Assembly: GCA_022795445.1 (NCBI GenBank)
Contig: JAAWGR010000001.1
Coordinates: forward strand, 84,743 to 148,742
DNA length: 64,000 nt
Direction of reading: 5' to 3'
Origin: Oscillibacter sp.
GTDB lineage: Bacteria; Bacillota; Clostridia; Oscillospirales; Oscillospiraceae
The notes beneath the pieces were generated by a model. The model saw only the letters and a list, made by a program, of their open reading frames with translations. It had not been told where the DNA came from and made no database searches. Below are positions 3,699 through 9,653 of this stretch, piece by piece. The position numbers were made by a program, and so were the translations under genes. The first letter of the stretch is position 1. Each line of letters starts with the position of its first letter.

Positions 3699-4004
3699 GT
3701 GTTGACTTCTTCCGGTTCCGGCGGGGTTTCTTCAGTTGGCCGGGCTAAGGGCTATTATCCCTATCAAAAGCGCGGCGGCCTTGCGCAGCCGGCGGCTGAA
3801 CCGAATTACGATTCCGCTACGTTCTCCTCTCTTATGGCTGGGAAGTCCACCCGGATGGACGTCGTCAGCCGGCTGTCTCAAGAGGTGCGCACCACAACTA
3901 CCACCGGCGATATCCAGGAACTGCGCCGGGCAGTGTCCGCCGGAGAGTATACCCCTGACCCGATGGCAATCGCGGGCCGAATTTTGTTGATGGTGGAGGA
4001 ATAA
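3699..4004 (+). CDS. flgM: Anti-sigma-28 factor FlgM
   Basis: C-terminal FlgM signature (IQELRRAVSAGEYTPDPMAIAGRIL); immediately upstream of flgN-flgK. Confidence 0.85.
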   Translation: MLTSSGSGGVSSVGRAKGYYPYQKRGGLAQPAAEPNYDSATFSSLMAGKSTRMDVVSRLSQEVRTTTTTGDIQELRRAVSAGEYTPDPMAIAGRILLMVEE

Positions 4005-4006
4005 CC

Positions 4007-4513
4007 ATGGAAGACACTTACCGTTCCTACTTGGAATTGCTGGAAACCCTGCGCACAAAAATCGAGGCACTGTCCGAGCTGTCTAAGAAAAAAATCGAGG
4101 CGGCGGAAAAGGACGACCTGATGGCCTTGAATGAAGTGATCAAGCAGGAACAAGCGTTGTCGCTGGCCTTCCGGGGCTTGGAACTGAGCCGGGAAAAACT
4201 ACAGAAGGAAATGGGCATCCAGGAGATCGCCCTGTCCCAGCTGGAAAGCCGCTATCCCTTGGAAATGCGGGAGAACGCCCGGCAAGCCGTGGCGGCCCTC
4301 CAGGAGGAGTACCAGAGCTACCAGGGCGTAGCTAAGACCGCACGGGGCGTGCTGGAGCATAATCTATACGAGGTGGAGCGCGTGATCGCCAGCATGGGCG
4401 GCGCAGCGGCCGAGACGAGCCAGGATGCCGCGCCAAAAGCCGGGTACGCCCGCCCTGCTGCCGAAACCGTTGCGCCTCCCCCCCCCTCTATGCGGACAGA
4501 CTTCCGTGCGTGA
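4007..4513 (+). CDS. flgN: Flagellar chaperone FlgN-like protein
   Basis: Coiled-coil helical protein between flgM and flgK, FlgN-like. Confidence 0.8.
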   Translation: MEDTYRSYLELLETLRTKIEALSELSKKKIEAAEKDDLMALNEVIKQEQALSLAFRGLELSREKLQKEMGIQEIALSQLESRYPLEMRENARQAVAALQEEYQSYQGVAKTARGVLEHNLYEVERVIASMGGAAAETSQDAAPKAGYARPAAETVAPPPPSMRTDFRA

Positions 4514-4575: not shown

Positions 4576-7047
4576 ATGGGCATTGGTACCTTTGGGTCCT
4601 TCACCCAGGCGCGGCTGGCAATTTATGCCGCCCAGGCCGGCATCCAGGTGACGGGCAACAACATCTCAAATATCAATACCGAGGGCTATACCCGCCAGCG
4701 GCTGGACCAGAGCAGCCTATATATCGGCGGCTCAGACCGCTACAGTTCCAAGTACGACCTGCGGATCGGCCAGGGCGTGCTTTGCACGGGCGTTTCCCAG
4801 CTGCGGGACCCTTACCTGGACCTCCGATTCCGGAATGAGTCCGCCTACGTGGGCTATACGGATGAACGGCTCGATACGCTGAACAAGATTGCCTATATCC
4901 TGGATGAAACCGGTAAGGGCGACAAGACGGAAGGGGCGGACTTCGGCCTGATTTCGGCGGACTTGGCGGACTTGGAAGACGCCCTGCGGTCTTTGACCCT
5001 CGATACCGGACACCAGGAGTTCGACAACCAGGTGCGGGCCGCCGCGGTCGCCCTGTGCGCAAAGCTGAATTCTTATGCGACCCGGCTTCAGGATGAGTAC
5101 AACACGCAAGTGCGGGAGCTTGAGAAGGAAGTGGAGGATATCAACGTTATCCTGACAAAAATCCGGGATTTGAATGAGACGATCCGGAACAGCGAAATCC
5201 ATGGACAGGACGCCTTGGAACTGCGGGATATGCGGAACAACCTGCTCGACCAGCTGTCGGATAAAATCCACATTGATGTGACGTACGTGCCGGAGGACAT
5301 CGGCGGCGGCGTGACGGTGCAGAAGCTGATCGTCAGCCTGGCGGGCGATAACCCGGATTCTACGGTGAAGTCCGACTCCGCCGAGCTGATCAACGGTATC
5401 TACGGCGCACAGATTTCCATCGATCAGGTCCCCCAGCCAAATACCAAATATGACCCCAATGACAAGACAAGTATGCCGTATCTCGATGCAAAAGGCAACC
5501 TGACCAGTAAATTGTCGGAGGCGGAACAGGTTCCAAAACCTAATCCAAATTATGATGCCGCAGTAACGGATACAACACTTCCAGGGTTTGGACAGTATTT
5601 GAAGCCGGATGGCACAGGAACGAATGATACGAATTTAGCCGCACAGGTGCCGAAGGAAAACCCTGATTACTTGAAATATCTGAAAGCGGACGGCACTGCG
5701 ACAAACGACCCGGCGGAAGCAAAGCAGGTCAACAACTCGAACTTCAACCTCACCGTTTCGGAGCTGCGGGATAGCCGGGAAAAGCTGCTGATTTATACCA
5801 ATAAGGATGTAAAAGAGATTTCCGCACAGGCTTATAAAGATGCAATCGCTGCCAACCATGGCCCCATTATAGAGGTTGATAATGGCGACGGTACAACTAC
5901 AGTTACCGTTTACCAGAAGTCTTCCAAAGGGAAGTACACAGAGACCACATACACGCAGAGGCCGTCTGTGGAGACGCCGCTGGATGACAATGACCTCTAT
6001 GGCCGCCTCCAGGCAATGCGCGAGATGCTGACGGAAGCGGGCGAGTTTACCGATACAGAAGTGGTGGCCGAAACGAACAACGACCCCACTGACCCGTACC
6101 GCAACGCCGATGAGTCGGCGCTGGTCAAGCGGGGGATCCCCTACTATCAACATGCGCTGGATTTGCTGGCCAACCAGCTGGCGAAGGTCATGAACGAGGC
6201 GAACAACGGCTTCATGATGGATAAGGATGGGAATTACATCTCGAAGGGCGTAGACGATAAAGGGAATACTATCGGTGTGCCAATTACCATTACTTATACG
6301 CCTACTGGTACGACCGATGATGTTGATTACGCGCTGAATGCGAAGGTCGCATGGGATGATATCCCGCAAGAGGTCCGAGATGCGCTGGAGACGGCAACCG
6401 GGCTTGACAGCACTAAAGTGGATGGAAAAACGATCATTGAAACCTATCTGACTGGCAAAGATGCGGATGGTAACGATATTATTGGCACAGATGGTAATCC
6501 CATTCCCCAAGGCATCAAGGTTGGCGTAAACCTGATCAGTAACCGGGGGGATACGAACGATGATACAGACATCACCGCGTCAAATATCTCCGTCTCCGAC
6601 GCGTGGAGAAAAGGCTCGGCGCTGGTTAACTCCTTCATCGCCGACCCAGGCAAGGGCGTAGAGCCCGCCAGCGGCGATAGCTCCAATATCCTCCATTTCC
6701 AGGGCCTGCTGGACTTGAAGCAGATGTTCTACCCCGACGAAACCCCTGATACCGCCGGAAAAGCCGGCCACGATCTTATGTTTACGGGTACGTTCCACGA
6801 GTATTGGAACAATGTTGGCTTTACCCTGGGCCAGGACCAGAATGTGATGAACAACCAGCTGGAGATGCACTACCAGAACGCGCTGGAGATCGATACGGGC
6901 CGGGATTCCGTCTCTTCCGTCGACTTCAATGACGAAGCCATGAACCTGACGATGTATGCAAAATCGTATAACGCCGCCTGCCGTTTAATGACCACCATCG
7001 ACTCAATGCTGGATAAGCTGGTCAACGGCACCGGCATGACCACTTGA
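4576..7047 (+). CDS. flgK: Flagellar hook-associated protein 1 FlgK, with large variable central inserts
   Basis: N-term GSFTQARLAIYAAQAGIQVTGNNISNINTEGYTRQR; C-term EAMNLTMYAKSYNAACRLMTTIDSMLDKLVNG; ATG 4576 after AAAGGAG. Confidence 0.95.
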   Translation: MGIGTFGSFTQARLAIYAAQAGIQVTGNNISNINTEGYTRQRLDQSSLYIGGSDRYSSKYDLRIGQGVLCTGVSQLRDPYLDLRFRNESAYVGYTDERLDTLNKIAYILDETGKGDKTEGADFGLISADLADLEDALRSLTLDTGHQEFDNQVRAAAVALCAKLNSYATRLQDEYNTQVRELEKEVEDINVILTKIRDLNETIRNSEIHGQDALELRDMRNNLLDQLSDKIHIDVTYVPEDIGGGVTVQKLIVSLAGDNPDSTVKSDSAELINGIYGAQISIDQVPQPNTKYDPNDKTSMPYLDAKGNLTSKLSEAEQVPKPNPNYDAAVTDTTLPGFGQYLKPDGTGTNDTNLAAQVPKENPDYLKYLKADGTATNDPAEAKQVNNSNFNLTVSELRDSREKLLIYTNKDVKEISAQAYKDAIAANHGPIIEVDNGDGTTTVTVYQKSSKGKYTETTYTQRPSVETPLDDNDLYGRLQAMREMLTEAGEFTDTEVVAETNNDPTDPYRNADESALVKRGIPYYQHALDLLANQLAKVMNEANNGFMMDKDGNYISKGVDDKGNTIGVPITITYTPTGTTDDVDYALNAKVAWDDIPQEVRDALETATGLDSTKVDGKTIIETYLTGKDADGNDIIGTDGNPIPQGIKVGVNLISNRGDTNDDTDITASNISVSDAWRKGSALVNSFIADPGKGVEPASGDSSNILHFQGLLDLKQMFYPDETPDTAGKAGHDLMFTGTFHEYWNNVGFTLGQDQNVMNNQLEMHYQNALEIDTGRDSVSSVDFNDEAMNLTMYAKSYNAACRLMTTIDSMLDKLVNGTGMTT
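5425..5736 (+). repeat. Three diverged in-protein repeat units in FlgK (QVPxxNxxY...YLxxxGxxTxxxxxAxQ)
   Basis: Aligned units YLDAKGNLTSKLSEAEQ / YLKPDGTGTNDTNLAAQ / YLKADGTATNDPAEAKQ, each preceded by QVPQPNTKY / QVPKPNPNY / QVPKENPDY. Confidence 0.8.
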
Positions 7048-7061
7048 GTAGGAGGTGCCGC

Positions 7062-8522
7062 ATGATTACACGCACAACAACCGTAGGCGTTTTGAAAAAC
7101 TACCGCTATAACCTGAACAGCTCCCTCACCACTATGGGCACGGCCCTGGGTAAGATTTCTACCCAGCGGAATTTTAACTCCTTTGCGGAAAATCCCGCCC
7201 TGGCCGCCCGGGCCTTCCAGCTGCGGAATGCCTATCTGCGTACCAGCAGCCAGTATAACGCAAACGATTCCCTGATCCATAAGTATGACGTGGCATGGTC
7301 CGCCCTGGACGGTGTGGAGAAGAATATCGATACCATCTCAAACAGCGGCCTGTTCTCCATCATCCGCGGCGAAAACGAGCCGGACGCCAGCGGACGCAAC
7401 GCCTTGGGCCAGGACCTGTGCGCCAAGGCAAGGGATATCGTCCAAACGATGAACGGCCGCTATGGCGAGGACTATGTGTTTGGCGGCGCGGAGACCTTGA
7501 GTGTCCCCTTCACCTGGGTCGCTAAAGAAAACCCCGAATATGTAGAGGACCCTAAGGACCCTGTGCATTTCCAGTATATCGCACAACCGGGTTTGGGTGA
7601 AGTTACCGTGAATGGTGTCGAATATACAAATAAAGTCGAAGACGCAGATTTTGAAGAAACTGACAATCCAGCTTATGCCGATGCTTGGCAGAAATATCAA
7701 GATGCCCTTAATAGTGCCACTACTCAGGAGGAAAAGGATGCTGCTGAAAGCTTGAATCCGAATACTAGCTGTCCTCAAATCCCTGAAAAAATAACCACCT
7801 ATAAAACAAACGACAGCTATAACGCGATGGCCAAATATAAGTACCTGAAAGTGGACGGCAGCGGTACAAACAACGAGGCAGATGCGGAGCAGAAGCTGCT
7901 TTACCGCGGGATTCCCGTGGACAGCATGGCGGAGGAAGATACGAAAAAGCTTGACTATTACATGAACAATGAAAAGAAATATATCGATATCGGCCTTGGC
8001 TTCAATGAAGTGAACGGCGAGGTCGTACCTTCCAGCGTCACCAACAGCGCCCTCCAGGGTATCTACTACCTGGGCGGCTACGGCACGACGTCCGTTACGG
8101 TCCAGACCGACCCGGACGACCCCAGCACGAAATACACTGTGGATAATATCCCGAAAAATATTGTATCCATTATGAACCGCCTGGGTACGATCATGATGAA
8201 CTGTGACCCGGATGACGGCGAATTCGCCAGCCGGGAAGAGGAAATCGAATTCTACGCCCTGGCGCAGCAGTATGAGGAAACAAGCTCCCTGGTGAAGCAG
8301 CGCTATACCGAGCTGGACACCAACTCCAGTTTCCTCAAGGCCAACGAGGAACTGCTGGTCTCCAACGCCGACAACCTGCAAGAGCAATTCATGGGTATCG
8401 AGGATATCGACCCTGCCGCCGCGATTTCCGATTTTATCTTCGCACGCTATGCATACGACAGCGCACTGAAGGTGGGCAACAGCGTCCTTTCGCAGAGCTT
8501 GATGGATTATATGAATTTTTAA
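7062..8522 (+). CDS. flgL: Flagellar hook-associated protein 3 FlgL
   Basis: Flagellin-like N-term (MITRTTTVGVLKNYRYNLNSSLTTMGTALGKISTQRNFNSFAENP) and C-term (AISDFIFARYAYDSALKVGNSVLSQSLMDYMNF); ATG 7062 after GGAGGTG. Confidence 0.92.
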   Translation: MITRTTTVGVLKNYRYNLNSSLTTMGTALGKISTQRNFNSFAENPALAARAFQLRNAYLRTSSQYNANDSLIHKYDVAWSALDGVEKNIDTISNSGLFSIIRGENEPDASGRNALGQDLCAKARDIVQTMNGRYGEDYVFGGAETLSVPFTWVAKENPEYVEDPKDPVHFQYIAQPGLGEVTVNGVEYTNKVEDADFEETDNPAYADAWQKYQDALNSATTQEEKDAAESLNPNTSCPQIPEKITTYKTNDSYNAMAKYKYLKVDGSGTNNEADAEQKLLYRGIPVDSMAEEDTKKLDYYMNNEKKYIDIGLGFNEVNGEVVPSSVTNSALQGIYYLGGYGTTSVTVQTDPDDPSTKYTVDNIPKNIVSIMNRLGTIMMNCDPDDGEFASREEEIEFYALAQQYEETSSLVKQRYTELDTNSSFLKANEELLVSNADNLQEQFMGIEDIDPAAAISDFIFARYAYDSALKVGNSVLSQSLMDYMNF

Positions 8523-8580: not shown

Positions 8581-9189
8581 ATGGATCGACTGATAGAAAT
8601 CACAACAGTACCCATCGAAATTGAGATGAAAACATCCCGGGCGCAACTGCAATATACCAGAGGCACTGCGGAGCTGGAGGTCTCCCGGGACAAGGGCGGG
8701 CTAAGCATTAAAAGTCGTCCCATCCAATTGAATATAGACACCTTTGAGATGCGCAGTTCCATCATGCCGACACCAACCCAGACCGTTGAACAGAATGCGC
8801 AGGAGGGAAAACAGGCAGCCTATAAGGCGACCGCTACCTTTGCCCAGGAGGGAGAACTGTACCTCAAGGCCAAGCTTGGCGAAGGCGTACAGCTCCCATT
8901 TGCCCAGACAGCCCTGAGCCCCAAGATGTTCAGCCAGCCGGCGCTGGATTTTATCCCGTCAGAAGGCCCGGACATCACCTGGGACCCAGGCGAGATGAAT
9001 ATTCGCTACGAAATGGATAAACTAAACTTTGATTGGCGGATCAACCCGAACCAATTTGAATTCGTCCCCGGTGATATCGAGATTTCCGTGAAGCAGCGCC
9101 CCGAGGTCATCATCAAGTATATCGGCGGGCCGCTGTACGTACCGCCCTCTGCGGACCCGGAATATGAACCGGTGGACGTCCAAGCGTGA
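8581..9189 (+). CDS. DUF6470/YviE-like flagellar-cluster protein
   Basis: Located between flgL and fliW as in the Bacillus yviE arrangement; repeated Ile/beta-type N-terminus (PIEIEMKTSRAQLQYTRGTAELEV). Confidence 0.7.
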   Translation: MDRLIEITTVPIEIEMKTSRAQLQYTRGTAELEVSRDKGGLSIKSRPIQLNIDTFEMRSSIMPTPTQTVEQNAQEGKQAAYKATATFAQEGELYLKAKLGEGVQLPFAQTALSPKMFSQPALDFIPSEGPDITWDPGEMNIRYEMDKLNFDWRINPNQFEFVPGDIEISVKQRPEVIIKYIGGPLYVPPSADPEYEPVDVQA

Positions 9190-9203
9190 CAGGAGGTTCT
9201 GAT

Positions 9204-9653
9204 TTGAAGCTCCAAACGAAATATTTTGGGGAAATTGACTACGAAGCCGGAGAAGTGGTTACGTTCCCGGCGGGAATGTTCGGCTTTGAGGAGGAACATG
9301 GCTTTTTGCTGCTGCCTTTCGATGGAAGCGGCGGAAACTTGCTGTGCCTCCAGAGCACAACGACGCCGGCCCTGGCGTTTGTGGTGATGGACCCCTTTTC
9401 CCTCCTGCCGGATTACGCGCCGGTCCTCCAGAAGGCCGAGCTGCAGCTGTTCGGTGTGGAAGAGGTGGGCGAACTGGGCTTTTATGTCCTGTGCGCTGTG
9501 AAAAACCCTGTCTCCGCCAGCACAGTGAACCTGCGGTGCCCCATTGTGGTCCATCCCAAGACCCGTGAGGCGCGGCAGGTGATCATGGAGGTCTACGATA
9601 TGCGCCACCCGCTGGAGGAGTTTGGCCGCAGGGAGGAGGCCGCGCCTTGCTGA
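9204..9653 (+). CDS. fliW: Flagellar assembly factor FliW
   Basis: LQTKYFGEIDYEAGEVVTFPAGMFGFEEEHGFLLLP typical of FliW; followed by csrA; TTG start 9204 likely. Confidence 0.92.
   Translation: MKLQTKYFGEIDYEAGEVVTFPAGMFGFEEEHGFLLLPFDGSGGNLLCLQSTTTPALAFVVMDPFSLLPDYAPVLQKAELQLFGVEEVGELGFYVLCAVKNPVSASTVNLRCPIVVHPKTREARQVIMEVYDMRHPLEEFGRREEAAPC

Follow-up and report, generated by a model that had tools for sequence, protein, structure and literature searches.

A tandem hairpin repeat common to the junction proteins FlgK and FlgL of Oscillibacter-like bacteria, probably copied once between adjacent genes

Insertions in the proteins of the hook-filament junction are known from several flagella. 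In the Salmonella junction the D2 domains of FlgK and FlgL are exposed (PMC12221982), and for Burkholderia, where D2 is a beta-sandwich in FlgL as in FlgK and the extra exposed domain of FlgL resembles that of FlgK, both a relation between the two proteins and a quasi-homotypic D2-D2 contact have been proposed (PMC6155364). Other variable or extra hook-associated domains, such as those of the Campylobacter FlgLs of 750-950 aa or the D3 domain of Burkholderia FlgK, are likewise lineage-specific insertions in FlgK or FlgL, but they are not described as sequence repeats common to the two (PMC5691160). We found no report in the open-licence literature of repeats, or of a tandem repeat family, common to FlgK and FlgL. 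The locus described here resembles the Burkholderia case in that related extra elements occur in both proteins. It differs in that the D2 domain is a folded beta-sandwich found by structure, whereas the element common to the two proteins here is a sequence repeat arranged in tandem, located in D1b in FlgK and in an outer loop in FlgL, and its occurrence in FlgL is limited to one lineage. Our preferred account, to which we assign a probability of roughly 65%, is that the repeat arose first in FlgK, was copied once into flgL, diverged independently in the two genes, and serves as surface decoration.

The window, i.e., the whole stretch of 64,000 nucleotides analysed, has its nearest named relatives among Oscillibacter sp. 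MAGs, in a group that also includes the cultured Oscillibacter sp. 1-3. Its flagellar genes run in the order flgM-flgN-flgK-flgL-DUF6470-fliW, and the features needed below are:

3699-4004, flgM
4007-4513, flgN, upstream of flgK
4576-7044, + strand, flgK (HAP1), 823 aa with ATG at 4576, with three units in tandem in the D1b beta region
5428-5529, + strand, FlgK unit 1, residues 285-318, VPQPNTKYDPNDKTSMPYLDAKGNLTSKLSEAEQ; 46.2 bits with the unit HMM, predicted beta-turn-beta-short helix, GC3 0.59
5530-5646, + strand, FlgK unit 2, residues 319-357, VPKPNPNYDAAVTDTTLPGFGQYLKPDGTGTNDTNLAAQ; 44.8 bits, GC3 0.31
5647-5727, + strand, FlgK unit 3, with a short spacer, residues 358-384, VPKENPDYLKYLKADGTATNDPAEAKQ; 40.7 bits, GC3 0.63
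7062-8519, + strand, flgL (HAP3), 486 aa with ATG at 7062, directly after flgK
7518-7649, + strand, degenerate first unit of FlgL, residues 153-196, VAKENPEYVEDPKDPVHFQYIAQPGLGEVTVNGVEYTNKVEDAD; a weak match of 8.9 bits, GC3 0.41
7650-7796, + strand, insert segment between the FlgL units, residues 197-245, without a recognisable unit; GC3 0.31, sliding GC 0.41-0.43
7800-7895, + strand, last FlgL unit, residues ~247-278, YKTNDSYNAMAKYKYLKVDGSGTNNEADAEQK, immediately before LLYRGIPVDS; 27.6 bits, GC3 0.66
8581-9189, DUF6470 gene, between flgL and fliW
9186-9653, fliW, after the DUF6470 gene

FlgK is identified by both sequence and fold: it matches the TIGR02492 equivalog model with E 1.8e-57 and 195.6 bits (curated cutoff 170.75) and the Pfam domain PF22638 FlgK_D1 with 66.4 bits against a cutoff of 28.6, and the top Foldseek matches of its model are the FlgK structures of Campylobacter and Salmonella (5xbj, E 2.1e-12; 9go6). 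For FlgL the match to TIGR02550 spans nearly the whole length (E 1.4e-15) but at 57.5 bits stays below the curated cutoff of 127.2, so that its identity rests on its position after flgK and on the fold, the best matches of its model being chains of FlgL length in the Salmonella junction complex 9go6 (E 1.4e-8).

The repeat has the consensus VPKENPDYDPNDAAAYQYLKADGTPTNDEAEAAQVP in the unit profile, and FlgK holds three tandem units of 27-39 aa each over 5428-5727. The original prediction had described a 17-residue module shared by FlgK and FlgL. All of the peptides it quoted are present, YLDAKGNLTSKLSEAEQ at 5479-5529, YLKPDGTGTNDTNLAAQ at 5596-5646 and YLKADGTATNDPAEAKQ at 5677-5727 in FlgK and YLKVDGSGTNNEADAEQ at 7842-7892 in FlgL, and the sharing stands. 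The length does not, since the unit spans 27-39 aa in the FlgK of the window and starts with a VPxxNPxY head. Likewise, the octapeptides VPKENPDY (5647-5670) and VAKENPEY (7518-7541), which had been matched to each other, both exist, but VAKENPEY lies about 100 residues ahead of the YLKVDG unit of FlgL and heads a second unit, which is degenerate. The assignment of this unit is backed by where it lies and by relatives whose first units are intact.

The repeat is real and recurrent, and it is absent from the family libraries searched: searches of Pfam, NCBIfam, PHROG and PDB sequences returned no family that covers the unit and no credible known repeat. Queried with insert and consensus, Pfam gave no choline-binding or cell-wall-binding repeat among matches up to E 10. 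A phage origin was also considered and dropped, as tblastn against 50,697 phage records gave no match. The nearest resemblance among structures is 7pl2, a putative endo-beta-N-acetylglucosaminidase, which also has tandem stretches with a YLxxDG turn and gives a weak profile match; the match is limited to about 13 residues and lacks both the NPxY head and the TND..A tail, and no Pfam repeat model matched the unit. While the repeat family would thus be new, the mechanism of its origin would be ordinary duplication.

How strong is the similarity between the two proteins? The nucleotide match of 26/33 positions noted originally is exact, and extends to 38/51 over the full 51 nt. Compared on their own, the FlgK and FlgL of the window are borderline, because one of 200 shuffled FlgL sequences (mean score 39.6, sd 4.8) also reached the 65 scored by their best ungapped segment. 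The wider set is far more decisive. Between the FlgK of the window and the FlgL of Oscillibacter sp. 1-3, an alignment of 127 aa holds three units in register (E 5.8e-21). When an HMM is made from FlgK units alone, taken outside the clade (other genera and early branches), it matches 22 of the 23 FlgLs of the clade with 17.7-39.3 bits (22.3 for the FlgL of the window), whereas the best of 483 reversed or shuffled control sequences scores 6.8 bits. The one FlgL missed belongs to the nearest relative of the window and has degenerate units, which reach 8.3 and 19.4 bits with the general profile. For the set as a whole, these comparisons exclude chance and composition as the source of the similarity.

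Convergence on similar turn-rich hairpins in two exposed loops is another way to obtain such a resemblance. The motif is short and rich in turns (YL..DG..T), and similar stretches do occur in unrelated proteins: YLKxDG in 7pl2, Top1B_N when searched with the consensus, and a large dockerin-like protein of another family with E 2e-5. What two convergent loops would hardly produce is the same order of elements, NPxY...YLxxDGxxTxDxxxA, over 34 columns, scoring up to 39 bits with a profile blind to FlgL, or three units in register across the two genes; moreover, when whole genomes of the genus were scanned, flgK and the neighbouring flgL were the only genes in which the unit turned up. We consider convergence of the turn motif unlikely, at about one chance in ten, and read the units as homologous.

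The distribution of the units bears on the order of events. In the genus, 25 of 86 genomes carry units at E up to 0.001, and every open reading frame read at the fetched loci is a FlgK or a FlgL. Across the family, 20 of 401 genomes from 14 genera do so, and beyond the genus all of the units are in FlgK; the full FlgLs of 18 genomes that are either unit-bearing and outside the genus or early-branching contain none. Another family of the order contributes two genomes with a unit in FlgK. In a phylogeny computed from the conserved FlgK and FlgL cores (43 rows), the presence of units in FlgL requires one change, on a branch with support 100/100 that leads to 21 Oscillibacter-like genomes, most of whose FlgKs have about three tandem units. 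Units in FlgK require four changes, but because the outgroup genomes were picked for carrying FlgK units, these gains and losses are biased and the history in FlgK is less certain than the gain in FlgL. The tree of the units themselves is nearly unresolved, the units being short (34 columns); the AU test does not reject a single origin for those in FlgL (p-AU 0.43), and the direction of copying, which we infer to be from flgK to flgL, rests on the species distribution.

Whether the motifs of the two proteins arose independently had been posed as a check across strains, and the orthologues gave a single gain in FlgL together with strong profile similarity between FlgK and FlgL. With the p-AU value, the same results support the segmental duplication, or common ancestry, that had been suggested. 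In the history we propose, a hairpin repeat of 27-40 aa would have existed first as a single copy in a loop of the D1b region of FlgK in several Oscillospirales genera, one copying from flgK to the adjacent flgL would have taken place on the branch to the Oscillibacter-like clade, landing in an exposed loop that joins the PFTW strand to the YRGVPVD strand, and each array would afterwards have changed in number and sequence separately, some pieces being imported from other strains.

The similarity could in principle also be maintained by gene conversion or ectopic recombination that still goes on between the two genes and keeps the modules alike within each strain, as the original prediction envisaged. 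In its favour, the genes are adjacent, the units are tandem, and the window shows the 26/33 match. Such a process should make the units of the two genes more alike within a genome than between genomes, and they are not (permutation p 0.86 for the best and 0.96 for the mean similarity). At identical residues, codons agree between FlgK and FlgL units at a rate of 0.494 (0.510 expected), whereas agreement exceeds expectation among FlgK units (0.587 vs 0.517) and among FlgL units (0.594 vs 0.547). None of 2939 windows tested for codon sharing is significant (strongest p 1.5e-3; best between the FlgK and FlgL of the window p 0.18), although the FlgK of L071 and the FlgL of L059 show a locally high codon match of 8/9. 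Unit positions instead behave as orthologous: the last FlgK unit is nearest to another last FlgK unit in 22 of 25 cases, and the last FlgL unit to another last FlgL unit in 22 of 23. Continuing conversion thus finds no support here and we hold it to be improbable; by sequence, the repeat appears to be old in FlgK, copied once into FlgL and not recently exchanged. Sub-types common to FlgK and FlgL middle units of different strains (FGQYLKxDGTGTN and TQPNAxGNExYL) point the other way, and the closest relatives of FlgK unit 2 include middle units of FlgL from other genomes, so there may have been more than one exchange, i.e., a few further ones. A second variable segment of FlgK, residues 392-470, has no relatives in FlgL.

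The arrays of the window are also mosaics in base composition. Compared with a GC3 of 0.75 in the cores of flgK and flgL, values are low in FlgK unit 2 (p 2.8e-8) and in FlgL residues 153-196 (p 5e-6) and 197-245 (p 5e-10), while neither FlgK unit 3 nor the last unit of FlgL departs from the core. The low-GC3 patches at 5530-5646 and 7518-7796 suggest that some pieces of the arrays were brought in later from relatives of lower GC; relaxed codon selection would give a similar pattern.

What the units do was approached through AlphaFold monomer models, which were built from shallow alignments and have a mean pLDDT of 76.7 for FlgK and 80.6 for FlgL. In both proteins the units are predicted to form a strand, a DG turn and a short strand, i.e., a small beta-hairpin, with block pLDDT mostly 82-92, and a helical turn is predicted after the hairpin in FlgK unit 1 and in the last FlgL unit. 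From the model and the domain limits of PMC5691160, the FlgK units are assigned to the D1b region, flanked by the long D1 helices, and not to D2; those of FlgL are placed by the model in the outer loop between the PFTW and YRGVPVD strands. In a published Campylobacter model, D1b mostly meets the hook protein FlgE (PMC5691160), and this position, hook-facing in a relative, speaks somewhat against a common contact surface at the junction.

Such a surface would be expected if the units formed a quasi-homotypic contact between the FlgK and FlgL rings and strengthened the junction. The two rings adjoin, the contact proposed for Burkholderia offers a precedent (PMC6155364), and the gain in FlgL falls on a branch where FlgK arrays mostly have several units too. 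Against it, apart from the D1b position, which the secondary structure of the model bears out, the numbers of units in FlgK and FlgL are uncorrelated (rho 0.10, p 0.67), and one genome, L066, has three FlgL units without a recognisable FlgK unit. The lack of correlation also leaves the suggested co-diversification of the two exposed domains unsupported. Given the D1b and FlgL-loop positions and the exposure of the D2 domains, we favour decoration and regard a contact role as rather doubtful. Most likely the units are tolerated as a decoration of the outer surface of the hook-filament junction, differ from strain to strain and lie outside the core fold, their surface exposure and decorative role being inferred. 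We are similarly sceptical of the more ambitious proposal of a new junction-specific hairpin repeat family, copied from FlgK to FlgL, whose arrays interact across the rings and modulate the junction, in its mechanics or its surface, in gut Oscillospiraceae.

In the genomes scanned the repeat family is almost restricted to FlgK and FlgL. If the units were at first confined to FlgK and then gained once in the flgL next to it, the locus would illustrate cleanly how a module can move in nature from one structural gene to its neighbour, and the series of strains could be used to ask what purpose decorations on the outside of the junction serve.

Some minor observations concern other inserts. The large, secreted-looking dockerin-like protein, from another family of the same order (L161), contains the unit-like stretch KYLDAEGNVTDDPTQA, a weak match outside the flagellar proteins that is possibly due to chance. 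FlgLs of other genera and early branches (L141, L143-L149, L151 and L155) have long, different inserts at a different site, after the YRGV strand; some of these are repetitive (EKAWxDYYNH...KP; YYLxxxxxTISxxDYxxA), and no sequence relation to the unit was found in them. Finally, a different stretch, DxxGNPVxxxDENGNPAVDxxGNPxx, is common to residues 565-607 of the FlgK of L056 and residues 266-308 of the FlgL of L148 (E 6.8e-8), and may be either a second shared module or low-complexity sequence.
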